From assembly GCA_016169945.1 (NCBI GenBank), contig JADLSH010000201.1:186001-250000 (forward strand): a DNA stretch of 64,000 nucleotides, given 5' to 3'. Positions 31,001 through 62,627 of this stretch are shown here, in pieces (position 1 is the stretch's first letter; each line of letters begins with the position of its first letter). Source of the DNA: Trachythela sp. YZ-2020. Taxonomy: Eukaryota > Cnidaria > Anthozoa > Malacalcyonacea > Clavulariidae. Below the pieces are notes generated by a model. The model saw only the letters and a program-made list of their open reading frames with translations, was not told where the DNA came from and did no database searches. The position numbers and the translations under genes were made by a program.

Positions 31001-34000
31001 TAATCCGGCGGTTTGTATCAAGAAGATTGAAAGCTTGGTGACAAATATTAAAGAAAAGTTCCCTAATTCTACAATTGGTCTCTCTAGTATCACGTTAAGG
31101 CGTGATCTAGATTTGGAAGAGCAAATCGCGAAAGTCAATGACGGGCTACAAGATTTCTGCTCGAAGAACGAGTTTAATTTTATAGATAACCGGAACTTGG
31201 ACAGCTCATGCTTAAACGGTAGTCTGTTACACTTAAATGCTAAAGGTTCGGCATACTTGGCTGCCAATTTTATTAAATTTTTACGAGGAAAGACTTCCTT
31301 TGCTCCTTCTATCGGCCCCAAACAAAGACGCAATCAGGATTTTCTCAACAACACAGCTCGGCTGAGCTTCCTGGAGGACATTCTGCGTATGATGCTGAGT
31401 CCCCAAAGGCCCAGCAGCCGTTCAAGGAGGTCCTGACTGAACCTTGGTGTGACCCATTCGAGATAAGTAGTGATGTTAATAATAATAATCAATTCTCCCT
31501 TAATGACTTAAGTAATTTGAAAGGGTTAAAAATCGCATGCTTAAATATTAATAGCCTATCTAAGCACATTGATGAACTTCGAGTAATTATGCTAAATAAT
31601 TCCTTAGATATCCTTTCTATCAATGAAACTAAAATTGACGAGTCGGTTTCGGACGACGAAATAAACATTAGCGGTTTTCAACTAATTCGAAAAGATCGCA
31701 ACGGCTACGGAGGCGGTGTATTGATGTATATTCGGGAGACTATTCCCTTTAGCGAACGGAATGACTTACTAACGGCATGCTCGCTGGAAATATTATGTGT
31801 TGAAATTAGTAGACCATGCAGTAAGCCATTCTTAGTATCTACATGGTATAGACCCCCTGGCTCAGTTACTCGCTTGTTTGATGATTTCGAAAATTTTCTG
31901 AGAAGATGTGACTTGGAAAACAAAGAATTATTACTTATGGGTGATCTAAATTGTGATGTTAGTAAGTCTCCCCCTGATGCTCACACGCGTAGGCTGCTAT
32001 TTCTTTCATGCATCTACCAATTTGAGCAGTTAATTAACGAACCCACAAGGGTTACGAGAACGTCAGCAACCTTGATCGATTTGATTTTTACTAATAAGAA
32101 AGAAAATATTACAAAATCCGGAGTTATTCATCTTGGTATATCCGATCACAGTTTGATTTTTACCGTTAGAAAATTTTTTACTCCAAAATCTCGTCAAAGT
32201 GTAAGATATGTCCGTAACTTTAAAAATTTCAACGCTACGGACTTCCTTAATGACCTATCACAGATACCATGGGAAAATGTGACACAATATGCTAACCCAA
32301 ACTCTTGTTGGCATTTATGGAAATCATTTTACTTGCAAATACTTGACCGACATGCACCATTTAGATGCATGAGAACCCGAGGTAACTCACTTCCGTGGAT
32401 TACTCCAAATATAAAAAATCTGATGAGAGCAAGAGATTTTCACAAAAAGAAAGCAGTGAAATTTAATTCCCAATTACACTGGTCGAAATACAAAGACACT
32501 CGCAATAAAGTTAATTCTGAATTGTATAAATCCAAAAAGAGTTATTTTTGCGACAAATTTGAGGTTTGTGCTCAGACCAAAGATCTCAAACAAAGTTGGC
32601 ACCATATTAATCACCTTTTGGGTAAGAATTACAAATCAAACAACATTCCCCAATTAATAATAGGCGATACTATTGTTTCTGATAATTTACTGATAGCTGA
32701 GGCCTTTAACGACTTCTTTGTGAGCATTGGGCCAAAATTATCTGCTGAAATTGACCCCGACGCCACGGACTTGTCAGAATCAGAAAGTCCCGTCACTAGT
32801 CCAGAGACTCTATTTACCCTGTCTGAAATTAGTGAATACGAAGTATTTCTTTGTTAAGTAATCTTAAATCATCAAAATCGACTGGCCTTGATTCTATCCC
32901 CGCAAGGGTACTTAAAATCTCAGCTGAAATAATTAGCCCTTCTCTAACGTGGATTTTTAATCTCTGTATCAAATCCGGTGTCTACATAGATGATTGGAAG
33001 AAGGCTTGGTTATACCCATTTATAAGTCAGAAGATAGAAAAAAATGCGAGAATTATCGCCCAATATCAATCTTACCAATTATTAGTAAAATTTTTGAGAG
33101 ATCCGTTTTTAATCAATTATATGAATTTCTGAACGCCAATTCTCTACTCTCTAAACATCAATTTGGGTTCCGCCTAAAAATTCTACTCTGGCAGCTCTCA
33201 TTCAGATGTGTGATGCATGGTATGAGAGCATGGACAATGGTGAATTGAATGGTGTTGTTTTTGTTGATATCCGAAAAGCTTTTGACTCTATTAATCATAA
33301 CATTCTACTGCGCAAAATGAAAGAACAATTTGGGATTTCAAATATTGAATTAAATCTGTTCGAGTCCTATCTTTCTGACAGGAACAGATGTCATTTGTTA
33401 ATGGCGAAATGTCAGCTCCAAAAGGATTGTATGTGGGGTTCCTCAAGGATCCATATTGGGCCCCCTATTGTTCTTACTTTATATAAATGATTTGCCTGAT
33501 TGTCTTGAGAAGACAACCCCTTGTTTATATGCTGATGATTCACAGATATTTTCTCCTGCAAAAGACTGTACAGAACTGAATGCTAATTTAAATCATGACT
33601 TAAACAATGTTAGTCAATGGCTCGTCAAAAACAAACTGCAACATCATTCAACAAAAACTAAATTAATGTATGTCGGATCCTATCACAACCTTGCTAAAAT
33701 TGACAATGATCTTCCCGTAATGATTAATGACCAACTGATTCCTAGAGTGCATTCAATCCCGTGTTTGGGAGTTAAACTTGATGAAACATTGAGTTGGGAC
33801 GACCATATTGAAATGGTTTGCAAAAAAGCCGGGGCTGGCATTGGGGTTCTGAGGCGTATTAAGCCCTATGTTCCTGCAAACACTTTGATATCAATTTATA
33901 ATGCTCTCGTACAGCCTTATTTCGATTACTGCTCTCCTCTTTGGGGCACCTGTAACAAAACCCTGAGAGATAAATTACAAAAGTTCCAAAATCGGGCCGC

Positions 34001-37000
34001 CAGAATAATAACTGGCGCCAGTTATGAGATTAGATCTGCTGACGTTCTCCGATCTCTTGACTGGGAAAATTTGGAAACACGATGGTACTTATCTAAGGCT
34101 ACATTCGTATATAAAGTCTTGAGCAATAGTGCTGCACCGACCCTGAAAGATTCATTCTTAAGTAGGAATACTTTACAAAATAATTATAATCTTAGAAATT
34201 CCCAAACCGATCTGGCCCTTCCAAAGCCAAAAAGAGAATTTCTTAAAAGAAGCTTTAAATACAGCGGGGCTTTTATGTGGAATGACCTCCCGCTTGAAGC
34301 TAAGCTAGCTCAATCAGTTTTCTCGTTTAAAAATTGTATCAAACAAAATATTCGATGTTAATAACCAAGTCATATCTCTACCTGGGACACACCGTAATCT
34401 TCAGTAGCCTTCATTTCTCAGTTTTGATAATGTATATAATTTATGTATATAGTTGCATGTCCTCTTTATATCCTTCCTTTTTTTACTATGTAATATTTTT
34501 ATATCGACGCCTCCCGTGGAAATCAACTTTTACATAGTTGTCGGGGCTAGCGTCTTTAAATAAAGTGTGTAATAATACCCCCTTAAGTTTCGCCCCTGGG
34601 TCAGTGGATATGTGCCTTATCCCTCTATCACAAGGGTTCGATTCCTGCAATATGCTGCAGTGTTATCTGATTGTAACTTTTCCTCAGTCACACATAAAAG
34701 ATGCCGTGGTATTACCAAACTCCGAAAGCTTTCTCCTCCTTTTGTAACACTGGCTCTATAAGAAATGTTTCTCACTGGACCGCTATAGGAGAATAGTCAG
34801 AACTGGTGAAGCATCCACGCATGCATGCATGCATAGTTTAATCATAGTCCCTATAACACAGTGTCTGGAAACGCATCTAAAGCTTTTGTTCTATGTTTTT
34901 GTTCATGTTTGTGCACAGTAGTAGGAGAGTGGGGGTTCTGCGGCGGGCGGAGCAGGCGGAGCGCTTTGCTCCGCCCATGACGTCATCGATTCTTAAATAT
35001 TTTTAATTTATTCACACCCACGTTAATTTATTTAACATTTTTGAACCGCTCCGTTTGTTTATCTACAGTTTTACTTTTAAGGATTGGTCCTCTGGGATTG
35101 GTCTGTCGAGTACAACATAGAACCTTTGAAAAACATTTGAAATTTACTAAAATTTTCAGCTTATATGCAACTAAAATGCTCCTACCGCATGCGGTGCATC
35201 GATAACGCAAATCATACCCACGTATACGCATGCGCAGTAGTAATAACGTTTAAAATTTACTAAAATTTTCAGCTTATATGCAACTAAAATGCTCCTACCG
35301 CATGCGGTGCATCGATAACACAAATCATACACAATTATACGCATGCGCAGTGGTGGTTTTTTATTAGGGTCGATGCGGGGTCGATGTGAGGTCGATGTAG
35401 GTCGATGTGAGGTCGATGTGAGGTCGATGTGAGGTCGATGTAGGGTCGTTGTAGGGTCATTGTAGGGTCGATGTAGGGTCGATGGCCAAACAAGCCAAAC
35501 AGGCCGAACAGGTCAAAAAGGCCAAACAGGCAGGAGCAGGAATGACAAGAAACCATTTTATTTGTAATATGGTCGTGTAAGTATGCCTTGTACGTACGCA
35601 ATGGGATTTTATAGCAGTTGTCTGGAAATTCTCTAAAGCTCCTGTGGAGCTTCTGTGGAGCTTCTGTAAAGCTTCTGTAAAGCTTCTGTGAAGCTTCTGT
35701 GAACATTCTGTGAAGCTTCTGTAAACTTCTGTGGAGCTTCTGTAGATGTGAGGTCGATGTGGGGCACCGGTTCGAGTCCGGTTCGGTAGATGTAAACATT
35801 TCGGGGTTCTGTAGGGGTTCTGTAGGGGTTCTGTAGGGGTTCTGTAGGGGTTCTGTAGGGGTTCTGTAGGGGTTCTGTAGGGGTTCTGTAGGGGTTCTGT
35901 AGGGGTTCTGTAGGGGTCCCCTTGGGGTTCCCTCGGGGGTTCCCTCGGGGGTTTCCTTGGGGTTTCCTTGGGGTTCCCTTGGGGTTCCCTTGGGGTTCCC
36001 TCGGGGTTCCCTTGGGGTTCCCTCGGTTTTTATTAAAAAAATTTTTTAAAGGCCAATCGGGCAGTAAGAGCCCGTATATCGAAATAAATAGCGGGACGCA
36101 TCTTAACGCATCCCGACGTCCCGTTTGACAAAATGTGTAGGTCTTGCCATGGAACAGTCTTACGGGACGTTGGGATGCGTTAAGATGCGTCCCGCTATTT
36201 ATTTCGATATACGGGCTCTTACTGCCCGATTGGCCTTCAAAATTTTAATAAAAGGCAAAGAACAAAGGCTACAAGAAACCCTGAGCAAGCTGAGAAAACT
36301 GAGGAACCCCATGAAACCAAGGAAACCCCAAGGAAACCCTGGAACCTAACCCTACAAATTCTAACTAGAACCCCTACAGAACCCTACTAAACCCTACAGA
36401 ACCCCTACAGAACCCCGAAATGTTTACATCTACCGAACCGGACTCGAACCGGTGCCCCACATCGACCTCACATCTACAGAAGCTCCACAGAAGTTTACAG
36501 AAGCTTCACAGAATGTTCACAGAAGCTTCACAGAAGCTTTACAGAAGCTTTACAGAAGCTCCACAGAAGCTCCACAGGAGCTTTAGAGAATTTCCAGACA
36601 ACTGCTATAAAATCCCATTGCGTACGTACAAGGCATACTTACACGACCATATTACAAATAAAATGGTTTCTTGTCATTCCTGCTCCTGCCTGTTTGGCCT
36701 TTTTGACCTGTTCGGCCTGTTTGGCTTGTTTGGCCATCGACCCTACATCGACCCTACAATGACCCTACAACGACCCTACATCGACCTCACATCGACCTCA
36801 CATCGACCTCACATCGACCTACATCGACCTCACATCGACCCCGCATCGACCCTAATAAAAAACCACCACTGCGCATGCGTATAATTGTGTATGATTTGTG
36901 TTATCGATGCACCGCATGCGGTAGGAGCATTTTAGTTGCATATAAGCTGAAAATTTTAATAAATTTCAAATGTTTTTCAAAGGTTCTATGTTGTACTCGA

Positions 37001-40000
37001 CAGACCAATCCCAGAGGACCAATCCTTAAAAGTAAAACTGTAGATAAACAAACGGAGCGGTTCAAAAATGTTAAATAAATTAACGTGGGTGTGAATAAAT
37101 TTTAGTAAATTTCAAATGTTTTTCAAAGGTTCTATGTTGTACTCGACAGACCAATCCCAGAGGACCAATCCTTAAAAGTAAAACTGTAGATAAACAAACG
37201 GAGCGGTTCAAAAATGTTAAATAAATTAACGTGGGTGTGAATAAATTAAAAATATTTAAGAATCGATGACGTCATGGGCGGAGCAAAGCGCTCCGCCTGC
37301 TCCGCCCGCCGCAGAACCCCCACTCTCCTACTACTGTGCACATTCACGCTCAGTAAACACATTGTTCTCTCAGCATAATGAAGGAAGCAGCCAATAAAAT
37401 CCCTGCAGCTGAATATTAATCTTTGTAAAACAAAGAAAACGTGCACTCTCAGTACACCCTCAACATTAACCCACGGACATGGCTATAAACTTTCGAGTTT
37501 GCCGCGTTTCCAGACACTGTATTTTAGGGACTATGGTTTAATTTAGCAATATTTTTTTCTTTCTATTTATAAACTAGGAGTTACTATCGCAAGGAAAGTG
37601 CTGCCTTGACGCCCAAACTGCATGCAAAATCCCTCGACCAATTAGTAATATTGAACGTATTTATATTGCTAATGGCACACTGTATGTATAGATTTATTTT
37701 CTTGTCCAAACGATGAGATTACAACACTGTGATTATTGTAAATAATAATATATAAGAAGTACACAAGTGGTTTTCAAAGCCACATATCAGAGTGTTCAGA
37801 CTATTGTCAATGGCATTCTTGGTACCAACATAATTGTTCCTGTTATTAGAAATCATTCTGTACTTCAAAGCTGTCAATTGCATCTTGCAATTGCATCTTG
37901 CAATTGCATCTTGCAATTGCATCTTGCAATTGCATCTTGCAATTGCATCTTGCAATTGCATCTTGCAATTGCATCTTGCAATTGCATCTTGCAATTGCAT
38001 CTTGCAATTGCATCTTGCAATTGCATCTTGCAATTGCATCTTGCAATTGCATCTTGCAATTGCATCTTGCAATTGCATCTTGCAATTGCAAATAAATTTG
38101 GAAGAGTAGAGACAATGTATTTTAATATCTTTGTGGTACAATAATAGTTTGCATGTTGTCTGTGTTCATAAGATATTGATACTGCACTTGCCATGTGCTA
38201 AACAAACATGTCACAACAGTCTTTGTTCCCAATCTGTAGATATTTCATTTCATATTTATTTAGCATTTAGCTTCCATCAGTGTTCATCTGTACAGTGAAT
38301 TGTCAAAATACATGATTATACAGCAAACCAACATAATAGCATATCTCTCCAAAACAACTGTGAGCAGGGCATATGTTGGAAATATTTAATTATTTATATT
38401 GCAGATTCCATCCCATTACAGATGATGTAATATATCCATATTATTTTGTAAGTTTGTAACAACCATTTTTTTCAAGTAAATATACCATCTTTTATCAACC
38501 AAATTTGGTTTTCATTTTCTGCCTCAACAGGCGGTCAATGTTACTTTGTGCCACAACTGGCTCTGCCACAATGGGCAGATCAATAATATTTTGTGCCTCA
38601 ACACGCTCCACCACAATGGGCAGATCAGTTCTATTCTGTGCCTTAACAGGCTCTATCACAATGAGCTATTCCATTTAAAATCTGTAACCCCCCCTCCCTC
38701 TATCGAGGACAGGGGTTTTTCTATAACCCTGAAGAATTCCTGACTTTCAACAGCCCCTGAGGAATTTTGTATTTACAACACCTACCCCTGAAGAATTCCT
38801 GTCTTACAGATATTACCCCTGAAGAATTTGACTGCAACCTCCTGAAGAATTCAATTTTTTTACTCAACCCCTGAAGAATTCCAAGCCTAAATAGTCACAC
38901 CCCTGAAGAATTCCAAGGCAAAATGGCCCCTTACCCCTGAAGAATTCCAGGGTCCTCGATAGGGGGGTACGGTATTAAATGGAATAGCCCAATGGGTAGA
39001 TCAATGTTTCTTTCTGCCACAAAATGGGCTCTACCACAACAGGTAGATTGATATTTTGTGCTACGATCACAGGTACGGGCTCTATGACTACAGCTCGATC
39101 ACTATTTGTCACCGTCATAGATGGGGTTGTTTTTGCCTGCACAGGCGATATATTAACTGTGTCGACACAGACTGACATATCTTGTAAGAAAGCATGTTTG
39201 AGCCCGTTGAGGCACAAAATATTATTGATCTGCCCATTGTGGCAGGGCCAGTTGTGGACAAAGTAACATTCATCCGCCTGTTGAGGCAGAAAATGAAAAC
39301 CAAATTTGGTTGATAAATTATGGTATATTTACTTGTTATGGTTGTGACAAACTTACAAAAAATATGGATATATTACATCATCTGTAAGGGCCTAATGAGA
39401 TGGAATTATCATCGTACATGAATTAACCTCCACGGGTAGATTAATATTATTTGTCATCGTACATGAATTATAAACACTAACTATTGTTGGTATTCAGTTA
39501 TCTATAGACAAACATTCTACACCAGGATCTAGGACTAATAAGCCATTACTCAGAGCCTTTAAATACATTTTGTCTCCTTGTATTATTAAAGACATTATTA
39601 AATGTTGTTTTAGACCACGCGGACAATGGAATATTTCGTGCTGAAAGAAGCGCCAATAAACTCATAAAAGCACATTGCTTTCCTCTAGAATGAACACTAA
39701 ATAGTTCATCGCCTTGACGAATATTGGCAGAAAGAAATAAAGCCATACTTACCTAACTTACCTGTGTTTCTTCGGGAAATGTTTGTATATTTTGCATCGA
39801 TCTAGTCAGATCCAGAAATACAATATTTTCTCGCCCTCTCCCCCCACTTTAAAAATTGTCCTTGAGCTCGACTTTCTGCCTGGAATTGCGGACAGACACC
39901 CGGACACATTCGATCGAGATCTTGCCCATGCCAATATATATGTCGCGCGAAAGACTGGGTCAAGTGAACTCTGGCGAAACAAAAGGGCGTCAAGAATAGG

Positions 40001-46136: not shown

Positions 46137-46208
46137 ATGGCGACAGTGGAAGGGTTGGCAGAATTTATAAACAATCATAAATCGCAATTATTAAGTTGTG
46201 GAATTAAG
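46137..46208 (+). CDS. TTLL12: First coding exon (5' half) of a TTLL12-like gene, interrupted
   Basis: ATG in a good context (ATCAACATGG) opens MATVEGLAEFINNHKSQLLS-C-G-I, which resembles the N-terminus of tubulin-tyrosine-ligase-like protein 12 (an 'LAEF..LH...L..SGV..RYW' pattern in the human protein, from memory). The reading is broken at 46209 by the left LTR of a Gypsy element and resumes after the right LTR at 55769. TTLL12 is a TTL-family member with a degenerate ligase domain; no ligase-domain exons are seen in this window. The interrupted exon would not be translated past the LTR, so this copy looks like a disrupted allele or a pseudogene. Confidence 0.65.
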
Positions 46209-46361
46209 TGTTTTAAGATGTTAACTATTAACTCTTTTATTCAGTAATACCACTAAACTATTTACAAATTGTTTATATACGGCTGAATCTATCTAATTAT
46301 ATATGTATAGAATATTTGAATATATAAGCACTAAAGTATGCATAATTAACAATTTGTCACA
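46209..46361 (-). repeat. 3' LTR of the Gypsy element
   Basis: 153 bp, TG...CA on the plus strand, identical to the copy at 55616-55768 except for one A/G difference near base 60. A base T follows both copies, so the homologous block could be 154 bp. Confidence 0.92.
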
Positions 46362-46374
46362 TCTCCCTATCTTT
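46362..46374 (-). promoter_or_regulatory. Polypurine tract of the Gypsy element
   Basis: Minus-strand AAAGATAGGGAGA abuts the 3' LTR, the position of the plus-strand primer in LTR retroelements. Confidence 0.7.
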
Positions 46375-46555
46375 GAGCGAATACAAAATATTTTTTTCTT
46401 ATTTTTGTTTTTTACTAAACGTCTCTTCTAACTAAGTGTTCTTAAGTTATTTAATGAAATGTTCCCAACCTAAATCCTAATCAGTATTATAATAACCAAC
46501 ATGTTCTTATATTCTTATGTTATATAATATGTTGTAATATTATACTCTTACAAAT

Positions 46556-46803
46556 TTAACATTCTTCAACATATCGTTTTGGTCTCCGTATAACTCGTCC
46601 TCTTAAAGAACGGTTCACCGGACTCTGTACTGGTTCTTCCGGAGTTTCTTGATCAGTCACCCCATCTTCTAATCCCTCTGTTTCTGGAACTGAATTCAAA
46701 TCAGGAACTTCTGAAGGTATAGCTTGGAGATGCTTTCTATTCCTCCGCAACGTTTTTCCATTTGGAGTTTCCACAATGTATGATCTCGGTGTAGATCCAT
46801 ATC
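46556..46803 (-). pseudogene. C-terminal tail of the Gypsy polyprotein
   Basis: Encodes ETPNGKTLRRNRKHLQAIPS and ends RGRVIRRPKRYVEEC plus stop, the usual basic tail after integrase in this group. It is separated from the integrase by a 134-bp retroposed insertion. Confidence 0.8.
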
Positions 46804-46821
46804 AACAACAACAACAACAAT

Positions 46822-46853
<32 letters not shown>

Positions 46854-46937
46854 ATTTTATTAAGCACTATAACAATTACAAGGGAAATATTTACAAAAAG
46901 AAAATTAAATAACAGTATAGTGCAGGCCAACTGTTAA
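46804..46937 (-). mobile_element. Short retroposed fragment with (GTT)n tail, in the Gypsy element
   Basis: Minus strand: about 75 bp of unique sequence ending AATAAAATTT and then a (GTT)n tail (about 50 bp, seen as AAC repeats on the plus strand, 46804-46855). It is flanked by ATCCATATC and ATCATATC, an imperfect target duplication. A 3' microsatellite tail with target duplication is the hallmark of non-LTR retroposition (CR1/L2-type or a SINE using such machinery). Confidence 0.7.
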
Positions 46938-46945
46938 ATCATATC

Positions 46946-47321
46946 CACGGACAACCGCAACTGGATTCCACTGTTTCTGACCATCATGTTTAACTCGGAC
47001 AGTTTCACCAGGTTCCAATTCAGACAGGGGCCTGGCGCCATGCTTCCGGTTATACGAGTTACTATATCTCCCTTTCATCTTCTCATCTGCTTCACGAACG
47101 GACGAAAGATCCGGCCAGGCTGGCAGCAGATTCCGACTTAACGTTGGCATCGTTGTGCGAATCTGTCTCCCCATTATCAATTGGCTCGGACTCACTGCAA
47201 TTGGAGTCGCTCGATATACCATCAACGCTAGAAATGGATATTTTTGCTTCATGATTCTTTTGGCCATCTTAACTGCACTTTCTGCCTCTCCATTCGCCTG
47301 CGGATAATGTGGACTAGACGT
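46946..47321 (-). pseudogene. Integrase of the Gypsy element, C-terminal part
   Basis: Resumes after the hAT insertion with SPHYPQANGEAESAVKMAKR, containing the third catalytic residue (E of GEAE), then MVYRATPIAVSPSQLIMGRQ and the GETVRVKHDGQKQWNPVAVV C-terminal segment. It is interrupted at 46945 by a retroposed fragment, after which the tail continues. Confidence 0.85.
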
Positions 47322-48636
47322 CAGTGGCGAAGCCAGCCCGATGTGAGTGGTCATGCAACGAGCGCCAAAGGCGCGAGACCTGCTAGGGGGGTCCGGGGAC
47401 ATGCTTCCCCGGGAAAATTTTGCAATATTGACTCCCAGAATTGCCATAAGCAGCAATCTGGGCATCAACTTCTACGAATAGCTTGACCTAATAAAGGAAA
47501 AAATGTTGAGAATTTTGCATATTTCAGAGAACAATAATGAAGGTTAACACAAAAATAGGAAAACCCATTCCGAATAATATCTAAATTTTGACTGTTTCGC
47601 TCAGCCGACAATACCGGCTTCGCAACAAAGAAAGCATTTTCACTAGAATTGCCATAAAAGGGCTAGACCCGTCGAATGGTGGTATTTACCGTGTTTGTAC
47701 CGTGTAAACCAAAGGTAGGAAAGCGAAATGAATATTTAATTAGTTTATATTATTGTTAATTTGTAAACAAACAAAATTCAGAGTGTTTAAAAGCGGCTAA
47801 ATTGGCCGCATAGCGTTGTAAACAAACACAATTTACTTCTCTAAAGAGATCGTAAAACGCTGAATCGAACGATGGTATTGCCATCTACATAGAATGCAGC
47901 GAACCGAAGATATGTCCCCTGCCGGTCAAATAGTATTTTCTTGACGAAAGATCTGGCGTTGGTCGCTGCTTAACAATAATATTCTGTTCAGCAGTACTGC
48001 ATAGCCCAAGCAGAACTAAAAAGGATTTTCTCACCAACTCCGAAACAATATTGTTAACTTCGAGTGAAGAAGAACTCGAAATGCCTGAATGACTTGAAGC
48101 CATGTTCATTCAGGCGGAAAGCTTCGAGCAAAGAGGCTGTGATCAGGTTGGGCTGCCCGTTAGTCATGCAAATCGAAAATTGCATGACCGTAGCGTCAAA
48201 ACAACCGCATTGCGCGTGCGCAAACATCGTAAGCCAATCAGAAAACAAGAAACCTAATATAAAATAATATTAGCTAGTCATGCAATTCTGAAAATGCATG
48301 ACCAAAACAAGCAGCGGGTAACCACGCAGCAATTCCACGCACTCGTTTTCCACTCGTATTACGCAACCGGTCATGCATGTGAAAATATGCATGCCCTACT
48401 CAGTTGCCAAGGCAACAAAGCCGAAATCAAAAACATACGAGAACATTCAGCGAAAATGTCGCGTAAAGACCATTGATTTATGTCAAAAAATATAGCATAA
48501 AGCAGCTGAACGTAGAAAGGCAAAGACAAAGCGTAATTCTGTTTTAGACAATTTTACTGAACTGATTTTTAAACATTTTTGGGGAAAGTTTTAGTCATGC
48601 ACTGCATGACCTGCATGACCGCTGGCTTCGCCACTG
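47322..48636. mobile_element. Non-autonomous hAT-type transposon, copy 1 (in Gypsy integrase)
   Basis: 1315 bp with terminal inverted repeats CAGTGGCGAAGCCAG / CTGGCTTCGCCACTG and a perfect 8-bp target duplication CTAGACGT (47314-47321 and 48637-48644). Length and sequence of the duplication and the CAGTGGCG terminus are typical of hAT elements. No transposase is encoded. Relative to copy 2 it lacks about 55 bp around 47673, including a possible start codon. Confidence 0.93.
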
Positions 48637-48644
48637 CTAGACGT

Positions 48645-49526
48645 AGTGTGGACGAAGCCATACTCAACACTGAAATACCTAAATTCCTCTGAGAAAAAAG
48701 GTGGACCATTATCACTAATCAGGCATTCAGGAATGCCCCACCTTGCAAAGATATTCTTCAACTTAGCTATCACCGTCCTTGAGGTCAAGTCTGGTACATA
48801 AGCGATCTCAGGATACCGCGAGTAATAATCTATTACAACAACAACATATTCCTTCCCTTCCAAATCAAATGCATCGACACCAACTTTTTGCCAGGGTCGT
48901 TCGGGTAAAGGTGATGGTTTTAATGGTTCCTTCCGTTGTGACCGTCGGTTGACTTGGCAGAAATCACGGCATGAAACTTTTTCTTTGATCTCCTTAGAAA
49001 TACCGGGCCACCAAACGGACGACTTCGCTCGTTCCAAGCACTTTGACACGCCAAGATGACCATCATGGATTCTTTGGAGGATTTCATCTCTCATTACGGC
49101 TGGAATGACAATCTGGTCGCGATAAGTTAATTTTCCTCCGACATACGAAAGTTCGCCACGATAAGGGTAGAAACTTCGTGCTTCCTCAGGAACTTGCGCT
49201 TGATACCTTGGCCAACCATTAAGAACAAATTTGGCTACCTCTTGGAGTACTTCGTCTTGACGAGTTGCCTTTTCTATCAACTGAATCTTCTCTCCCGATG
49301 CCGGTCTATTGGATTCAACTGAGTTAATAAATGCTTGGACATCATCGTCGAGGTTTTCGACGCCACTGGTATTGGAAGGCAACGGACTTCGGGACAAGGC
49401 ATCCGCGAGAACAAGATCTTTACCAGGAATGTATACCGCGATGACGTTGAACCTACGTAGGCGCATCAAAAGGCGTTGACATCGGATCGAAACTTTATCC
49501 AACGTTTGTTGATTTATCAATGGCAC
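48645..49526 (-). pseudogene. Integrase of the Gypsy element, N-terminal zinc finger and core
   Basis: Begins [11 protein letters not shown] and runs through YIPGKDLVLADALSRSPL (end of RNase H), the HHCC finger (RIHDGHLGVSKCLERAKSSV then SCRDFCQVN) and the core with VDAFDLEGKEYVVVVIDYYS and LISDNGPPFF, which supply the first two catalytic aspartates. The frame is cut by the hAT derivative at 48644; the last residues of the track frame past that point belong to the insertion. Confidence 0.88.
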
Positions 49527-50149
49527 GAGGGGATTGTGAACTCAAATTGCTGAAGACCACACAAATAGCGATAAAACTTTTCACAAGCCCAAACACCTGC
49601 AAGACATTCTTTTTCGATTTGTGCGTAATTCTGTTCGGATTGTGTCAATGTTCGAGAGCAAAATGCAACTGGTCGCAAAGATTTATCGTCGCCTTCTTGA
49701 AGCAACACGCCACCTATACCGTAACTGCTTGCATCGGCACTGATTACTGTACGGCGGTTTGGATCATAAAACGCTAACACGGGAGCGGTAGATATCAACT
49801 GCTTCGCACTCTCAAAGGCTTTTGCTTGAGCAGGGCCCCAAACCCAGGTAGAATTTGCTTTCAGAAGATCATTCAAAGGCTGTAATGTCGAGGACAGGTC
49901 CGGCAGAAACTTTCCCAAATAATTGACCATGCCCAGAACCCTACGTAATTCTGACACGTCCCTTGGGGGTGATAACTCAATAATTGCTTTGACTTTCTCA
50001 GGATCGGGTTTAATGCCATCCTTACCCACGCGATGACCAAAGAACCCTATCTCTTCTTTACGAAACTCACATTTTGATTTATTTAACTTAAGCCCAGATT
50101 GTAGTACTGTATCTAGGACTTCTTCTAAATGCGAATCATGTTCTTTATC
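49517..50149 (-). pseudogene. RT thumb and RNase H of the Gypsy element
   Basis: Continues in frame after the stop at 50150: [34 protein letters not shown] and the RNase H segment [20 protein letters not shown] with [19 protein letters not shown]. These are the standard post-RT blocks of Gypsy polymerases. The frame ends FEFTIPSCH and stops near 49517, where a short deletion shifts reading into the frame of the integrase segment. Confidence 0.85.
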
Positions 50150-51364
50150 TTATTTCCCATAAACCAAAATGTCATCCATAATGACTTTTGTACCAGGTTT
50201 ACCCTGAAGAAGATCGGTCATCAATCTTTGGAATATTTCTGGTGCAGACGATATCCCAAATGGAAGTCGTCGGAAACAAAATCGACCAAAAGGGGTGATA
50301 AAGGTCGTCAACTTAGAACTTTCAACATGCAACGGAATTTGCCAAAATCCACTAGTAGCATCTAATTTCGAAAACACTTTTGACCCCTGGAGGGATGGGG
50401 TAATATCATCTAAATTTGGCAAAACGTATCTTTCCCGTTTCACTGCTTCATTTAATTTCTTTAAGTCAACGCAAATTCTAACTTGACCGTTCTTCTTCGG
50501 GACCGGAACAATAGGGGCACACCACTCAGTTGGCTCAGTTACCTCTTCTATTATCCCTTCGTCCTTCATTCTTTTCAATTCAGCTTCGACTAAGGGTAGT
50601 AGGGGAAAGGGTATACGCCTTGGGGTGGTAACACTATAGGGCTTGGCATTATCTGTTAATTCTATCTTTACGGGCTCACATTTCAATAACCCTATATCAC
50701 CAAACACGTTGTGATCGGTAATTTCACGCACCCTCTTAACTAACCCCATCTGACATGAAATTTCTCGACCCAGCAAACAGTTCAAATTTTCCCCACGAAC
50801 AACAAAAACACGAACTGTATAATCCACGGATTTATATGACATAACTGCTATGAACTCACCCATGCATGTAATTGCACCCCCAGGACTGCAAAGGACAGCG
50901 GTTGTTGATTGAAGTGGTGGGCATTCTGCTAAGCTATTATATGTAGCTTCTGGTATAACTGTTATGTCTGCCCCAGTATCTATCTTAAATTTGGTTAGTT
51001 TCCCGTTTAACTCGAGATCAACATGCCAGTGATCTTTGTCACCATTACTTGACATTACTGAGTCCAAAAAGAAAGTTTCGTCCCACTCTCGGACATCGTC
51101 ATTGGATTTTTTTGAAACTTCACCAACAGTTCTCCTTTGCATAGTTTTAGTTCTACATGACACGGCAAAATGGCCTATTTTAGCACACTTTCTACATTTC
51201 TTACCTCTTGCTGGGCACTGCGTTTCCTTGCCATGCTTCCTGTTGCACCGACCACACAGCTGCTGAGGTTGAGGCGATGGCGACTGTCTTTTATTCCAAT
51301 CCCCTCGGCGATAATTTCTTCGTCGTTGCACCTCATCGATGTGCTTTGTCTCCGACGTTTCTCG
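50150..51364 (-). pseudogene. Gag C-terminus, protease and RT of the Gypsy element
   Basis: The open frame is 393 residues from 51331. Two zinc knuckles lie at residues 26-39 (C-X2-C-X3-H-X5-C) and 46-59 (C-X2-C-X4-H-X4-C). The aspartic protease motif DTGAD is at 118-122. RT follows with EWCAPIVPVPKKNGQVRICV, FSKLDATSGFWQIPL and the IMDD catalytic box near the C-terminus. A TAA stop at 50150-50152 ends the frame ten codons or fewer after IMDD; the same frame continues beyond it, so this is a single nonsense mutation. Knuckles, protease and RT in one frame indicate a Gag-Pol fusion. Confidence 0.88.
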
Positions 51365-51685
51365 CTCGGTAGGCCTGCTCTGGGATCTTAACTCGCCTTA
51401 AATCGCCCTAACTCGCCTTAAATCGCGGATAAAAATTGGCAACAATTCTCTTAAATCGCTTAAACTCGCACTAAATCGCCTAAACTCGCCAACCAAATTA
51501 AAATGCTGAAAATAGTAAATACTATATACAGTGTAAACACCCTTTCCCCAGGAGAGGGGGGTTCTGGTTGTTTATTTCAGATAAGATTAGGAGTGCGCTT
51601 ATCCGAGGGGGCTTGCTGGAGAGAGGAGGCTTAGCCGAAACAAGGGAAGTTACATGCTTATTGATAAAAGCCGAAAACACAGTAA

Positions 51686-52291
51686 TGCACTAGTAATTGG
51701 AAAGCCACGCACCCCCCTACCCAGGGAACAGCGGACATTAGATAAAGGTTGTGTCCTAAATCATTCTAATCCCCAACCTATACATGGCCTTCTTACTAGT
51801 CTAAACATGACTAAAGTCCCCCGCTACCCGGGCACCAAAAATGAAGGCTACCATAATAATTGTTTTAAAATTCAACAAACTATTCTAAAATTTCCCCAAT
51901 TTTGATCATTGGAGGCCAAACATGCAATCCAGAGTTTGTCAAAACTTTGCCAAAGTAGGTAAATATTTTGCATTTTGTCTGTTAGCTGTATCTTGCAATT
52001 TATACAAAGTCAAATAATACATTATCCTGTAAAAGCTATTTTTAGTAAAACCAATGTCTATAGAGTATTAGGGTAAATGTCGATGAACAAGGCTTAATAA
52101 TACATCTCGAACAGACGAATTCCCACTGATTCCCAGCCCATAATCCCTGGCCATCATGACACATATCTAACATACGCTGTCTAATGCCCTGAGTACCCAG
52201 GCATAACAGATAGGCTAATCTGCAAATAAATCCCCGCTATTTCCCGGCATGTCCCGGATAGGGGGGTGCGAGGCTTTCCATGACTGGTGCA
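51686..52291. mobile_element. PIF/Harbinger-type MITE nested in the 3740-bp transposon
   Basis: 606 bp with imperfect terminal inverted repeats (TGCACTAGTAATTGGAAAGC / GGCTTTCCATGACTGGTGCA) continuing into GCACCCCCCTA, and flanking TAA (51683-51685 and 52292-52294). A 3-bp TWA duplication is characteristic of PIF/Harbinger. Confidence 0.65.
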
Positions 52292-53470
52292 TAAGTTACA
52301 TACTATCAAGCTTATAGGTATATAATATGACATAGAAACCCTTATATTCAAACAGAAAAAAGTCAGGATGGCAAGAATCAGTCTGTTTTCAACATTTTAT
52401 CTATTTCGATAAGTATAATTAATATGCCAATATTGTGATATGAACTTCCAGAACAATTCATAAATTGTTTCGTTTTCCTTTATTGAAAATAGTGCTGGGC
52501 CTATAAATTACAGGGTAGAGGGCTTATCAACTTTCGAAATTTTAAGTGACGGTAAACTGATACTTTTAATAGTCGACGGCCTTATATACAAGTGCTGAAT
52601 TGCAGTGCCTGTAGTGCACAACATTTAATATTTTATATCAACAGTGTTCAAACTTACATAAATTGATAAACCACAGCATGATCCTGGTCAACTTTTATAG
52701 TCAGCATTGTCCGGTTCATATCGTCTTATATAAAGATCCATGATCGTTTTAATAACCGAGGTTTAACATTTTTAGCGTACGATCTTGGGTCGATAACAAA
52801 ACCTGGCATTTTCATGAATTCAGTTAAATACTTCATGTTAGCCACTGCGGGGAGGGAGCCTTCTCTCAGGCTATCCAGCGGAAATTTATTATTCAAGTCT
52901 GGGAAACTTTATATAAACTAAATTTTAACATTAGTGAATTTTTATAAATACAGTAAAATAAAATACTGCACTTTATATATCGAGGGGAATTAAAATAAAT
53001 ACCAATCAATGTTGAGTTTTACTTGAACACATGGAAATGAAATACTATATTTGCAACGTAAATTCAAGCTTATTTGGTAAGTTTATAACACATATGTAAA
53101 TTCGTTTGAATATTAAACTACAATGTATTGCCACATTGGAACATGCATGGTCACAGTTTTAATATATTCTGTACCCTTGGAATTTCCAAGATATTGACAA
53201 GGCATTCATGCATTTGGAAATTCTCAAAATGTAGGATAGCAACCCCATGGGATGCACTAAATCTTCTAGTTCCTACATTCCAGCCACAACCCTGATTTTT
53301 TAGATTTCCAATTGATTGTGGTTCCTGCAGGACTGAACTTAGTAATAGGTATTAGTATGCAATTCAATTTAAAAATACATATTATATACTGGTTTATGTT
53401 CTTCATTGTATTAATTCCAGCAATTTGGTGGTATAATCTTAAAATTAGTAATACGGCAAAATAACAAGCT

Positions 53471-54794
53471 CAGTAGCGAAGCCAGTCCGATGTGAGTGGT
53501 CATGCAACGAGCGCCGAAGGCGCGAGACCTGCTAGGGGGGTCCGGGGGCATGCACCCCAGGGAAAATTTTGAAATATTGACTCCCAGAATTGCCATATGC
53601 AGCAATCTGGGCATCAACTTCTATGAATAGCTTGACCTAATAAAGGAAAAAATGTTGAGAATTTTGCATATTTCAGAGAACAATAATGAAGGTAAACACA
53701 AAAATAGGAAAACCCATTCAGAATAATATCTAAATTTTGACTGTTTCGCTCACTTGACAATACCGGCTTCGCAACAAAGAAAGCATTTTCACAAGAATTG
53801 CCATAAAAGGGCTAGATTATGTCGTATTGTAATAAAAATGGATTCATTTCAAAGATATTACAAAGACCCGTCGAATGGGGGTATTTACGAGTTTGTACCG
53901 TGTAAACGAAAGGTAGGAAAGCGAAATGAATATTTAATTAGTTTATATTATTGCTAATTTGTAAACAAAACAAAATTCAGAGTGTTTAAAACACAATTTA
54001 CTTCTCTAAAGAGATCGTAAAACGCTGAATCGAACGGTGGTATTGCCATCTACATAGCATGCACCGAACCGAAGATGTCCCCTGCCGGTCAAATAGTATT
54101 TTCTTGACGAAAGATCTGGCGTTGGTCGCTGCTTAACAATAATATTCTGTTCAGCAGTACTGCAGTAGCCCAAGCAGAAAAGGATTTCCTCACCAACTCC
54201 GAAACAATATCGTTAACCGAGTGAAGAAGAACTCGAAATGCCTGAATGACTTGAAGCCATGTTCATTCAGGCGGAAAGCTTCGAGCAAAGAGGCTGTGAT
54301 CAGGTTGGGCTGCCCGTTAGTCATGCAAATCGAAAATTGCATGACCATTGCTTCAAAAACAACCGCATTGCGCGTGCGCAAATATCGTAAGCCAATCAGA
54401 AAACAAGAAACCTAATATAAAATAATATTAGCTAGTCATGCAATTCTGAAAATGCATGACCAAAACACGCAGCGGGTAACCACGCAGCAATTCCACGCAC
54501 TCGTTTTCCACTCGTATTACGCAACCGGTCATGCATGTGAAAATATGCATGCCCTACTCAGTTGCCAAGGCAACAAAGCCGAAATCAAAAACATACGAGA
54601 ATATTCAGCGAAAATATCGCGTAAAGACCATTGATTTATGTTTAAAAATATAGCATAAAGCAGCTGAACGTATAAAGGCAAAGATAAAGCGTAATTCTAT
54701 TTTAGACAATTTTATTGAACTGATTTTTAAACATTTTTGGGGAAAGTTTTAGTCATGCACTGCATGACCTGCATGACCGCTGGCTTCGCTACTG
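53471..54794. mobile_element. Non-autonomous hAT-type transposon, copy 2
   Basis: 1324 bp, the same family as copy 1, with termini CAGTAGCGAAGCCAG / CTGGCTTCGCTACTG and a perfect 8-bp target duplication AACAAGCT (53463-53470 and 54795-54802). Near 53838 it has an ATG followed by MDSFQRYYKDPSNGGIYEFV and a possible splice donor (AAG|GTAGGA), which may be the first exon of the parental transposase; that is inference. Confidence 0.93.
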
Positions 54795-55116
54795 AACAAG
54801 CTAATTAATAATAAGTTTCAACTGGGTCTTGTTTACATGACAGTCTAACCAGACCCCCTGGGGTGTGAGGGGGGGAGTGGTGCTCTTTCAAAATACATTT
54901 ACTATGCACTATTAATTATGTGTTATTACTGTATTTTGCTTAAAGTACTATACTTGCATATTTAATTACCATGTATTTTTTCTTAAATCGCCCTAAAACG
55001 CCTTAAAACGCATTACCTAAAAGTTGTGTTTTTTCTTAATCGCCTAAACTCGCCTTAACTCGCATTATCTCGCGGCGAGTTAAGGCGAGTTAAGATCCCA
55101 GAGCAGGCCTCTCGGT

Positions 55117-55573
55117 TAATTGGGTCTTAAACTCTGCGACAAGTTTTTATCCAATGGTCCAATAACTATTCGATCTCGAATTTGTTCGTCTCGTGTATTG
55201 GCAAAATCACAGTTCTCTGCTAATTCGTATAGGCTACGGATTAACGCTTCGACGGGTTCTCCTGCATGCTGTCGGCGTTGATAAAACCGGGCTCTCTCAT
55301 GAATTACGTTTCGTTTTCGCACGAAATAGCCATCAAATCTTTCCAGAATCGCGTCATACTTCTCCTTTTCTTTTCTTTTTCCTCGAGCGAAAATGATTTA
55401 TAGATGTGTTCTGCTTGCTTCCCCATCGAGTAAATCAGGGTACTTATTTGAATTTCGTCGTCTTCTTTGTTTAATTTCGTCGCTATTCTATATCGCTCGA
55501 AACGCTGCTTCCATTCTGGCCATAGTTGTGGCTTTGTAAATTCAAAGTTCTCAGGCGGATTTATTTTCAACAT
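55117..55573 (-). pseudogene. Gag of the Gypsy element, N-terminal part, frameshifted and truncated
   Basis: Starts at ATG 55573 with PPENFEFTKPQLWPEWKQRF, typical of Gypsy Gag. The reading shifts frame near 55310-55330 and continues with VIHERARFYQRRQHAGEPVE and ELAENCDF..TRDEQIRDRIV, the conserved core of the retrotransposon Gag family. It is then cut by the inverted-repeat transposon at 55110. The remainder of Gag, with the zinc knuckles, continues beyond that insertion at 51364. Confidence 0.8.
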
Positions 55574-55597
55574 TCTCGGCTAAAGTTTAATATAAAT

Positions 55598-55615
55598 ATC
55601 CCACACCTGACACCA
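55598..55615 (-). promoter_or_regulatory. Primer binding site of the Gypsy element (tRNA-Leu-like)
   Basis: Directly after the 5' LTR, on the minus strand, reads TGGTGTCAGGTGTGGGAT. It begins with the complement of CCA and matches, with one mismatch, the complement of a typical tRNA-Leu 3' end as I know it. Confidence 0.7.
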
Positions 55616-55768
55616 TGTTTTAAGATGTTAACTATTAACTCTTTTATTCAGTAATACCACTAAACTATTTACAAGTTGTTTATATACGGCTGAATCTATC
55701 TAATTATATATGTATAGAATATTTGAATATATAAGCACTAAAGTATGCATAATTAACAATTTGTCACA
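55616..55768 (-). repeat. 5' LTR of the Gypsy element
   Basis: 153 bp. Same sequence as the 3' LTR apart from one substitution. Being adjacent to the primer binding site, this copy is the 5' LTR. Confidence 0.92.
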
Positions 55769-55812
55769 TTGAAGTCTACTGGAATACATTGTACGAGAAA
55801 CTAAGGCACGAG
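55769..55812 (+). CDS. TTLL12: First coding exon (3' half) of the TTLL12-like gene
   Basis: Immediately after the right LTR the sequence reads EVYWNTLYEKLRHE and stops at a GAG|GTAAAT donor (55813). It matches the continuation expected of TTLL12 ('YW..LL.KL.HEV' in the human protein, from memory). The five bases TGAAG after the LTR correspond to TAAG before the left LTR, an imperfect target duplication with one base lost. Exon 2 is not found downstream within the window. Confidence 0.65.
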
Positions 55813-57600
55813 GTAAATAGGTGTAGTGCTTTGTATAATAATGTAGTTCCTTTTAGAAGGAAATATTTACAATTAAATAATATAAGTCGCAAATGAATCA
55901 AATGATGGATCACTTGAAATGCAGTTGGGCCTCTACAAACCTAACAAACGTACATTCTGTACAACGGACAGCTCCATAGAACAGACAGTGACTGTGAGTG
56001 CAGGTCCCGATTTTTACTTTACAACGGAGTAACGTCATTCAGATAACAAACTGACTATCAATGCACAGGTGTGACAGCGGATCCCAACATGTAAACGTTA
56101 TTTGTCCAACACAATTATTTTCATCTTTCTCTAAACGTGCTAAAATTATACCACATACATTTTGTTTGTTTTCAAGCAAACCCTGGGTGGTAGTGCAGGG
56201 TGCATTCCATGTAAACGATATGCGTTACGCCAGGGCAAACTTGTGCCACGCCAAGGGACAGTGGGACACAACAGTTACTGTAGGTAGACTTGAGATACTA
56301 CAGTAACTCTCACATTTAAAAAATGATAAGATGTATAGTTTAAATCGTGAAAATGCATATACAGCAGTTGAAAAAGGTCCGTAGAGAACATATCAAAAGG
56401 CTGAAAAGTACATAAGCCAATATGCCAGACGGATTAATAGAGACAAAAATCTGATGCTGCTACGCCAAACCTGTTTATCACTAGTTTAACAATTATTTAT
56501 AGCTTTACTAAAAAGACATTATAAATGTATATTTTAGGCAAGTACAATTGATAAACTTTATGTTTCTTATCTTATAAGCATGATGAAGTCTTGAAATAGT
56601 AGGCTTTAAGGTAAAGTATTTGGTCTTTGCTCTTAAAGCATGTTGTATTTTACTTAGCGCAACCCCTGAAATTGGTCAAAATCTAGACAAATTTTGTCTT
56701 CTTAAATCCTTCTTAAAATCTTCCATTTGAAATTTGCCTTTGAGGATAAATTTTTTCTTTAGGAGTTCAATTTTGCCTTTTGTGATGTATTCCGAATGTG
56801 TAATGAGCTATATGTGGGCTCACAGATCAGAATCTTGATTGAATTATGTATTTTGTGAAACAAGATATGTAAACAAAACATGCAATAACATGTGAGCAGA
56901 ACAGACTTGACAGCCATTTTAACCCAATTTAGCTGGCAATGCGCCCAGATGTACCCTACTTTAGTATTTTACTCTATTTAACTTACTCGTCAGTGGTAGG
57001 GTGCTGCCAGTTAATGGGTTAAAGAACGAGTCTGAGTTATGCCATGCAGTTTAATGTTGAGGGGCTGGGGGATACTGTGACTTTCAAGCTGGAAAATATA
57101 GTCAACCACACGAGCACTGCTTGGAGGAAAGTTTAAGCTGCAAGGTTTTAACTTGAAAATTTTAAGGAAAACCTTACAGAACCTGTCTTACTATTGTGCA
57201 TGGTCTGCAGGAATTCTTTATCTTTGGCTGTGCTCACAGCAAGACAATTCTATTTTCCTCCTCTCGTTTCCCCCATAGTGTAAGCCACTGGTACATACTG
57301 TACTAGTGTATGTGACAAATTATATTAACATAAATTGTTATGTCGAAATTTTGAGTCTTTGACCGCAAGGTTTGGTGTTACGCTGTTTGTAATACGATAT
57401 CTAGAAGCATAATATATTATGGTACATTGTGTTTCCTAGTCATGCTGATCAGCCATGATACGGGGCGAAACAGTCATTTTATTGCCTAGCTAAAACAATG
57501 GCGTCCCCCCCCCCTTCCCACCGAAAAAATATGCCCCCTCTCCCTGGGGTAGTGGAACAAAATTTTTTGACTAACGTACGAAAATTCCTAGATCCGCCCC
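55813..57600. other. No gene recognised (intron 1 of the TTLL12-like gene)
   Basis: No TTLL-type exon is found. A C-rich fragment with GATCCGCCCCTGG near 57510-57603 looks like the end of a decayed repeat abutting the next element. Confidence 0.45.
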
Positions 57601-59168: not shown

Positions 59169-59576
59169 ATTAATAATATACATGAAAAAATTACACGCTT
59201 TGATAACACTTGTGCACTCACCTAGCGTTGTTTTCGTTGCTTGTTAGCAAACGTTTTCAGTCTATGTGCTCCTTGAACTTAAATTGTTGTATTCACGTAC
59301 GATTTTCCATTGAAAGTGTAGAAAAAGTCATCAAAAAGTGAAAATTTACATTGCTAATATCCGCCGCCATGTTGATTTTTTCTTGCCTCGTTTCCAGGCT
59401 CTGATCTTGTTTTGTTAATTCGCACTGCTGTAATTGCACAGTGTGCAATTTCAAAAATAATTGCACTGCTCTTAGCCAATCAGAATTGAGTATTTTTTTC
59501 ATCTATATTATTATTATTATAAGTACCCGCATCTATATATAATATACATGAACTTGTGGTTAACGCTTGGCAACTG

Positions 59577-59930
59577 GACTCTGTAGCTCAGTGGCCAGAG
59601 CGCTGCACCGGAATCGCAGGGCCGCAGGTTCAATTCCTGTCGGAGGACTTAGAGTTGCATTTTTCGCAGCCGTTCTCGTTCAGGTCTAAAATATTGTATA
59701 TATTATTTCACTCAAAATATCCATCCACCTAAACCTTCTACTTTAATTTCAGTCGAGTGAGATGCAGGAAAAAGAATAATCTTGTAGTTTACCTTATCAC
59801 AACCCGCAGTACCAGCATCTATATATATACATGAACTTGCGGTTAACGCTTGGCAACTGGACTCTGTAGCCCAGTGGTCAGAGCGCTGCACCGGAATCGC
59901 AGGGCCGCAGGTTAAATTCATGTCGGAGGA
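59577..59930 (+). repeat. Two tandem tRNA-like (SINE-type) units, 283-bp period
   Basis: Each unit has CTGTAGC(T/C)CAGTGG (box A) and GCAGGTT(C/A)AATTC (box B) with a GCACCGGAATCGCAGGGC anticodon-like part, at 59577-59647 and 59860-59930. The acceptor stem is only partly paired (CTCTG/CGGAG), so these are not functional tRNA genes. The 283-bp repeat extends through CTTAGAGTTGCATTTTTCGC and TATCCATCCACCTA. The second box B is damaged. Confidence 0.75.
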
Positions 59931-60161
59931 CTTAGAGTTGCATTTTTCGCAGCCGTTTCCTTTCAGGTCTAAAATATTGTATATATTATTTCGCTCGAAA
60001 TATCCATCCACCTACACCTTCTACCTTAATTTCAATCGAGTGAGATGCAGGATAAAAACATCTTGTAGTTTAAATATGTACACCATCATATCGGAAGTAC
60101 GTTATATTGTCATTTCTACCATGTATTTATGTGGCAATTAAATAGTTTTGTTATATTTCAG

Positions 60162-60716: not shown

Positions 60717-62627
60717 AACCCGAAGTGAACTGAAGTTGCGAACCCTTTCTTAAAATTAATTGGTTGTTGTACTGTTGAGTTACTGTGAAGTGATTTTTTG
60801 CTCAGAGGATTACGGGATGTTGTCTGAATAAGATATGCTGTCAAAGTTATCGTGAAGACTCTACTGGTCATTTTTTGAACCATGATGAAACAAAACATGG
60901 TATAGCACATCGATTTAGAGTATTTGTAAGAAAATAATATACTGTTAGGTTGATCGTTATAGTAGACTTTCGCCAAAGTTTTCATATATAGTTGTTGATT
61001 TAAGTTTTGTCACAAATTTCTATAACTAGATAGAAATTATTACTCGTGCCAAGGCCTTAAGGCCGGGTACGAGTCTTAAAATGCAAGTCGTTAATTTATT
61101 GCGTGCTGCCTCTCAGTGTTCTACTCGGGATTTATTACAAGCGTTTTCTCTGGGCTAAACGTGAAAGTGGACTACACAACTATTTGGAGTTTGAAAAACG
61201 TGGTTGTCAATGTGTGGAATTCTACTTTTGGTACATAAGTAGTTCGGACATAGTTGTTTGGACAATTGTAGTGTATATTTAAGTATTTGATTTAATTTAG
61301 TTACTATTTAAACGCGAATATTGTTAATCAATATTATTGTCATCTTAGTTTTACACAACAGTCAACCGCCGTATTTGCTATACTCTACACACACTGGCAC
61401 CGCACGTTCGAGATATATATACTAAATAACATTAAGCAATACCTATTGTATATAGTTGCTATAATTGTTTTATATATAAATGCAGATTTCATAGAATCTC
61501 TTGCTTAGAAATATTTTTAATTTTCCCTTTGTTCAGGAAATATCCGTATTGCAACTAGGCCAAACACGTTTAAATATTTTTGCTATTTTTTATAAAACGT
61601 TACGTGCAATGCTTTTAGAACAACATTGCTGACAATTTGAGATATATTCTACAGTTTCGTAGTGAAAGTGAGTGCTTGTAATGTTGATCGCAAATTATTT
61701 GTTTAATTTGCCTGTGAGTATTCTCCAAGAATTTATATACTTGATAGCGTATATACGCTTTTTGTCCCTGCCCCTAAAAATTTCACCATGCCCATGGGAA
61801 CTGTACATGTTGAGCAAATATATAGACCTAGACCCTAGACTCTTTTAATCACTTTGCCTATAGTAATGTGACATTGGCTGTCCCTCCTCTTCTATAGACA
61901 GGAAATCTACGCATAAAAACATGCATGACCGCAACATTCCATTTTTTACACTATCGTAACGTAGAGCTGTTAGTATCATCTGTGTGTTTGTTCGGTACAG
62001 TTTTGCTTTTTGGAGTTTCGTGATTTTCTTTTGCTCTCCGATTAACAATTGTTTAAGCGCGCGCCGACAGCGTATAGAAAACGATCAGGATTCAGGAAAG
62101 AAAGAGAAACAAGTCCTGAGCTCGACTCCTGAGCTCGAGTCCGAGCTCAAGTCCGAGCTCTAATCCTTGGCTCCATATTTAGGTACCCTCGATTACATTG
62201 AGAGTGAACAATCTTTGTTTGCGTGTTAACCGTACTATTCTCGGTATTAATAACATAAAATAACTAAAAATATAATATTTTAGGGAGCATTCATTTTTTA
62301 GAAGGGGAGGAGAGCCGGAGGAATCCAGGAGTGGGTCACTATATTTTTACTTGCTCAAAAAGGGGGGTTACTTTGCTCTTAATAGCACTATAAAAAGGGG
62401 GGGTCCCTTCTTTAACAGCATGTGGCGGCAGGGCGGCTGAGAGAATTTGTGTAGTCCGGGGTGGGGCCCCTGTGACATCATAATTTTAAAAACAGCAGAA
62501 ACAGTGCTATATTTGGGAGTCCTCTCTACAGGGCATGAACTCAAAATGGGCATCTTAAAATGGGGCCCCGATCTGAGGAGGGGTATTAATTTATATGGAG
62601 GGGCATGCTTAAGTTTTTGAATGCGTA
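60717..62627. other. No gene recognised
   Basis: 60717-60850 is the decayed 3' flank of the D8C duplicate. A GAGCTC-rich repeat lies at 62110-62190 (counterpart of 2140-2255). 62300-62600 is G-rich (AAAAAGGGGG, GGGGCCCC words), probably a decayed repeat. No open frame of note. Confidence 0.5.

Follow-up and report, generated by a model that had tools for sequence, protein, structure and literature searches.

A Ty3/Gypsy-type element carrying nested DNA transposons apparently splits the first coding exon of TTLL12 in an octocoral

Introduction

TTLL12 (tubulin tyrosine ligase-like 12) has been described as a pseudo-enzyme that is highly conserved in phylogeny (PMC3520985), and a separate account reports that polarized epithelial cells require it to form the primary ciliary axoneme (PMC10883266). 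Here we analyse 64,000 nucleotides of contig JADLSH010000201.1 from the octocoral Trachythela sp. YZ-2020 (contig positions 186,001 to 250,000, hereafter the window, in whose coordinates all positions are given), in which a 9,561-bp Ty3/Gypsy-type long terminal repeat (LTR) retrotransposon lies inside coding exon 1 of TTLL12. Both the TTLL12 identity and a Gypsy-type insertion inside the exon are supported.

Among octocorals, genome reports put the repeat content of Paramuricea clavata at 42-56% by k-mer estimate (PMC7467007), that of Eunicella verrucosa at 46%, with 6,766 haplotigs removed, and that of Dendronephthya gigantea at only 12% (PMC10243833). A hemizygous insertion would be unremarkable in a repeat-rich, heterozygous octocoral genome.

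Two halves of a TTLL12 exon

The interrupted exon lies in two parts:

46137..46208, plus strand: left part of TTLL12 coding exon 1, MATVEGLAEFINNHKSQLLSCGI, with homology until 46205 and then AAG
55771..55812, plus strand: right part of TTLL12 coding exon 1, EVYWNTLYEKLRHE, followed by the donor GTAAAT

The TTLL12 proteins of P. clavata (P0121) and D. gigantea (P0122) served as ortholog queries. The left half is identical to residues 1-23 of the P. clavata protein at 21 of 23 positions and to the D. gigantea protein at 17 of 23, and the right half matches residues 25-38 of D. gigantea TTLL12 at 11 of 14 positions and P. clavata TTLL12 at 9 of 14. This alignment of orthologs from related species confirms the identity that a prior sequence-only reading of the locus had suggested from the resemblance of both halves to the TTLL12 N-terminus. 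In tblastn searches of the window, the D. gigantea protein (cut-off 1) matched the two halves and nothing else (E 8.6e-7 left; E 0.005 right, over 55771-55815). The P. clavata protein (cut-off 10) matched the left half at 46137-46205 (E 1.5e-7), the right half (E 0.13) and seven further places, all at E 2.0 or worse.

Chance agreement was gauged with four queries and ungapped scores on 30 first-order Markov simulations of the window. The left-half queries scored 102 and 94 against simulation maxima (best of 30) of 33 and 40, and the right-half queries 54 and 69 against 38 and 36. A protein search that combined the joined exon with human TTLL12, scoring restricted to residues 1-46, returned P. 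clavata TTLL12 as its single protein (E 4e-11; three candidates examined). With that protein as query, D. gigantea TTLL12 was next best at 78% identity and the remaining named anthozoan matches stood at 40-44% (among the best 120 of 673). Judged by this one exon, the host is probably an octocoral. Pfam gave zero matches for the 38- and 39-residue translations of the exon. The good splice donor claimed for the end of the right half is borne out: the exon ends at 55812 and GTAAAT follows, agreeing with seven of nine donor consensus positions.

The split exon might instead belong to a non-functional TTLL12 duplicate, with an intact gene elsewhere. We consider this unlikely: while no further TTLL12 exon was detected in the next 8.2 kb, as such a duplicate would allow, the exon is followed by its good donor and bears no obvious sign of a processed copy, and P. 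clavata and D. gigantea contribute one cluster each among the best 120 of 673 matches.

The insertion junction

The element spans 46209-55769 on the minus strand, antisense to TTLL12, and is flanked by TTAAG on the left and TGAAG on the right (55770..55774, plus strand). According to the sequence-only reading, coding sequence stops exactly at the left LTR and resumes in frame after the right one, with TAAG and TGAAG as flanks. The element edge at 46209 stands, but homology ends at 46205, three bases short of it. The halves likewise hold up as coding sequence, but the junction between them does not, with removal from LTR to LTR giving ...GIK and a stop. The flanking letters are as claimed, but the two sides are unequal. 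An exact in-frame split was rejected: among three simple removals, one restores the frame, one places a stop at the junction and one shifts the frame with a later stop. A solo LTR left at the site would also leave stops.

What separates the two halves in other proteins is a proline, present at this position in all 11 TTLL12 N-termini examined. By pattern count rather than alignment, 169 of 186 homologues have [VIL]Pxx[FYHL]W somewhere in their first 140 residues; among the 17 others, three have the proline in another spelling (P0001, P0058, P0091), and in 14 the region does not appear within the 80 residues viewed. A stricter pattern recovers 100 of the 186, all 100 with the proline. We take the T at 55770 to be most probably the third base of this proline codon. 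The simplest account, which explains the junction best, starts from a 5-bp target duplication, TGAAG, and has about 4 bp lost from its left copy, the conserved proline codon among them; the AAG in front of the left LTR is taken as the remnant of that copy. The letters agree equally well with an alternative junction that has a 153-bp LTR, a 6-bp duplication TTGAAG, an exon previously without the proline codon and the loss of 1 bp on the left, but this requires that the codon had already been lost. An empty allele would read ...GGAATT joined to ...GAAGTCTACTGG without the element.

Repetitive genomes invite assembly join errors, and one at an LTR boundary was considered, with no direct evidence in its favour. 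We give this very little credence: complementary halves of one exon flank the two outer LTR ends, which argues against a chance join, and a target duplication could account for the flanks TTAAG and TGAAG.

Anatomy of the Gypsy element

The LTR pair consists of 154-bp direct repeats identical at 153 of 154 positions, the sole difference being A at 46268 and G at 55675. The single difference had been noted before, in a repeat then given as 153 bp. The parts of the element are:

46209..46362, minus strand: 3' LTR, 154-bp direct repeat
46363..46374, minus strand: polypurine tract AAAGATAGGGAG, adjoining the 3' LTR
46559..47321, minus strand: end of pol, named by eye as the C-terminal part of the integrase and a tail, with 138 and 81 codons in its open stretches
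48645..49541, minus strand: Gypsy integrase, open stretch (Integrase_H2C2 and rve core, Pfam E 6.6e-14 and 1.3e-11 for 48591-49523)
49520..50149, minus strand: Gypsy RNase H with the presumed reverse transcriptase (RT) end ahead of it, open stretch (RT_RNaseH_2, E 1.6e-35 for 49517-50026)
50153..51370, minus strand: Gypsy CCHC knuckle, protease-like region and RT (RVT_1, E 2.1e-18 for 50150-51328)
55119..55579, minus strand: N-terminal part of Gypsy gag, two overlapping frames with open stretches of 91 and 93 codons
55599..55615, minus strand: primer binding site (PBS) TGGTGTCAGGTGTGGGA, directly after the 5' LTR and starting TGG
55616..55769, minus strand: 5' LTR, 154-bp direct repeat

The polypurine tract and the PBS were read from the sequence, and the latter we take to be tRNA-Leu-like. 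Pfam matches follow the order RVT_1, RT_RNaseH_2, H2C2 and rve on the minus strand, that is RT, RNase H and integrase, and the protease and CCHC matches fall under the curated Pfam cut-offs. The integrase tail (46905-47465) gave no Pfam match, and the end of pol is broken near a (CAA)17 run at 46803-46853. We assigned 55119..55579 to gag by eye, no family search having been run on that region. A pattern search of viral_contigs with the 26 bases that open the left LTR found no match.

Frames are reported as found, without mending. An in-frame stop at 50150-50152 separates RT from RNase H, and the frame changes between the RNase H and integrase stretches. We rejected an intact autonomous Gypsy element on these grounds and on the presence of three nested inserts.

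Nested DNA transposons

Elements of the hAT superfamily make 8-bp target duplications and have short terminal inverted repeats (TIRs) beginning CAG. Two of the three inserts in the Gypsy element show these traits, and the third is another TIR element:

47322..48636, no strand assigned: hAT-like element A, in the integrase, TIR CAGTGGCGAAGCCAG, exact 8-bp target duplication CTAGACGT (47314-47321, 48637-48644)
51371..55110, no strand assigned: TIR element C, 3,740 bp, in gag, TIR AGGCCTGCTCTGGGATCTTAACTCGCC, exact 6-bp target duplication CTCGGT (51365-51370, 55111-55116)
53471..54794, no strand assigned: hAT-like element B, inside C, exact 8-bp target duplication AACAAGCT (53463-53470, 54795-54802)

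Aligned with each other (ends one base wider), A and B show 1232 matches, 40 mismatches and 98 gap columns and are, by this measure, evidently copies of one hAT-like non-autonomous element with TIRs of 15-16 bp. There is no long reading frame for a hAT transposase in A or B (the longest open stretch being 74 or 90 codons; no family search was run), and they are therefore called only hAT-like and non-autonomous. Element C ends in a 37-bp inverted repeat at 97%. Without the nested inserts, each taken with one copy of its target duplication, the Gypsy element measures 4,492 bp.

We also considered the direct repeats of about 1.3 kb at 47321-48636 and 53470-54794 as LTRs of an inner element and rejected this, because each repeat has separate inverted ends and is flanked by a separate 8-bp target duplication. 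Elsewhere in the window, 25591-25605 is a lone match (one mismatch) to the nested hAT-like TIR, without a partner among five matches.

Since A and C lie inside the Gypsy element, that element would predate their arrival in it. B may have entered C after C reached the Gypsy element or may have come along with it, and the arrival of A and C may have preceded or followed the landing in TTLL12, the data fitting both orders.

Age of the insertion

Divergence between the LTRs is 1/154, or 0.65%, with a 95% interval of 0.016-3.6%. The insertion had been called recent, and the LTRs are compatible with this; they bound the age weakly (up to 3.6%), however, and the copy is not pristine, given its three nested transposons, its stop and frame changes, and its unequal flanks. 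Gene conversion between the LTRs may also affect an age based on them. The nested inserts and frame breaks make a very young copy somewhat less likely, unless it moved with the inserts already inside.

The same evidence bears on whether this allele is rare or heterozygous, with the other haplotype intact and the animal functionally normal. This would be a version of the insertion reading rather than a contradiction of it, and we put it at about an even chance. The single LTR difference fits a young insertion. The two halves together match the orthologs at 30 of 37 (P. clavata) and 28 of 37 (D. gigantea) positions, much as the orthologs match each other in the exon region (27 of 38), and no decay is therefore visible. 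The P. clavata genome, as reported, has 0.71% heterozygosity and had haplotigs removed (PMC7467007). On the other side, an insertion with unequal flanks and three nested inserts is probably of some age, and the upper limit of LTR divergence reaches 3.6%.

Consequences for TTLL12

We consider it very probable that a Gypsy-type element inserted into TTLL12 coding exon 1, that this element took nested hits and its gag and pol broke, and that no normal TTLL12 is made from this allele. In the proposed course of events, a Ty3/Gypsy-type LTR retrotransposon would have integrated antisense to TTLL12 between the codons for ...SCGI and (P)EVYW, yielding a 5-bp TGAAG duplication; about 4 bp would afterwards have gone from the left copy, or been trimmed away in repair. 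The element, whether landed or still mobile, would have been hit by a hAT-like element and by the 3.7-kb TIR element with another hAT-like copy inside it, and both gag and pol would have broken. Translation from the ATG into AAG and the LTR ends after MATVEGLAEFINNHKSQLLSCGIKCFKMLTINSFIQ, 13 residues; a transcript from the TTLL12 promoter that enters the insert would accordingly encode 23 TTLL12 residues and 13 others before a stop. The allele, judged from its letters, is most likely null.

Two routes to a working protein were weighed. Between the final in-frame stop of the right LTR and the end of the exon there is no in-frame ATG; a rescued protein would accordingly need its start upstream or in a later exon, or would need weak splice sites. 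One route is a fixed insertion with TTLL12 made from an alternative start in a later exon, without the first 40 or so residues, which we find somewhat less plausible than even the duplicate described above. The SET-like domain is placed at residues 91-249 in an account of human TTLL12 (PMC3520985), and the best SET_TTL stretch in P. clavata TTLL12 covers 153-272, so that the first 40 residues lie outside both ranges; the next Met in the P. clavata protein is at 53. However, D. gigantea TTLL12 has no Met between 1 and 102 (the next is at 102), conservation of the N-terminal stretch extends from primates to coral, and the right half of the exon has no in-frame ATG.

The other route is removal of almost all of the insert as a new intron of about 9.6 kb (donors 46195, 46198 or 46210; acceptor 55774), with near-normal TTLL12 made. 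Among 432 donor-acceptor pairs scanned (donors 46140-46599, acceptors 55400-55811), eight are open in frame, three of which would remove almost all of the insert while preserving the frame for 12 of the 14 right-half residues. The donors of these three agree with the consensus at three of nine positions, against seven of nine for the native donor, and we regard this outcome as highly improbable.

Those three splice pairs are one of several points that weigh against our preferred interpretation of a disrupting insertion. The flanks of the Gypsy element do not form an exact target duplication, the right half by itself matches P. clavata TTLL12 weakly (E 0.13), and the reading-frame breaks of the element could partly be sequencing indels. 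In addition, tblastn with both octocoral proteins found no convincing later TTLL12 exon up to 64000: the top downstream match of the P. clavata protein (61160-61288, E 2.0) contains a stop, and the D. gigantea protein has no downstream match at E up to 1. Exons for the SET-like and TTL domains of TTLL12 were likewise not found by tblastn within the window and would fall beyond 64000. Intron 1 is therefore longer than 8.2 kb or the gene is discontinuous here, and the link to a whole gene depends on 37 codons and a donor site.

If the disrupting insertion is fixed, this octocoral would have lost or rewired TTLL12; if it is polymorphic, the locus would carry a naturally occurring knock-out. From the nest, which reaches up to three levels, a relative order of transposon activity can be read at one locus. 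Otherwise this is ordinary transposon mutagenesis: a well-known kind of event in a new example, an ordinary nested gene-disrupting insertion with an unusually legible nest and a conserved gene as its target.

Other repeats in the window

Further repeats lie outside the split exon. At 59522-60072 lie 283-bp units that nearly duplicate each other and have a head resembling tRNA-Ser (ARAGORN, anticodon gga, 59576-59649); they are probably a tRNA-derived short interspersed element (SINE) dimer. A plus-strand non-LTR retrotransposon at 30093-34361 has endonuclease, reverse transcriptase and (below cut-off) GDSL-like matches in three scanned frames, and the reading frame at 3178-3639, with a weak GIY-YIG match under the curated cut-off, is presumably Penelope-like. 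The inverted repeat at 34910-37342 has outer ends 100% identical over 246 bp and 11-bp tandem repeats within, and at 37875-38090 a 13-bp unit is repeated perfectly in tandem (16.6 copies with 100% matches). A repeat of about 420 bp is present in inverted copies at 10780-11203 and 17096-17506 (93% identity).

Comparison with known systems

The element resembles Ty3/Gypsy (Metaviridae) retrotransposons in its LTRs, in the PBS at the 5' LTR and the purine tract at the 3' LTR and in the order RT-RNaseH-integrase. Its flanks, though unequal as they stand, could be reconciled with a 4-6 bp target duplication. It differs in being broken by three DNA transposons and by frame breaks and in having protease and CCHC matches under the Pfam cut-offs. 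Elements A and B differ from hAT transposons in having no transposase-sized frame, whereas their 8-bp target duplications and short TIRs beginning CAG are hAT-like. The exon itself departs from other TTLL12 genes in being split by 9.6 kb, in a left junction without the proline codon and in a remaining gene undetected in the window; its likeness to them lies in an N-terminal exon that matches octocoral TTLL12, including GI-(P)-xxYWNTLxEKL.

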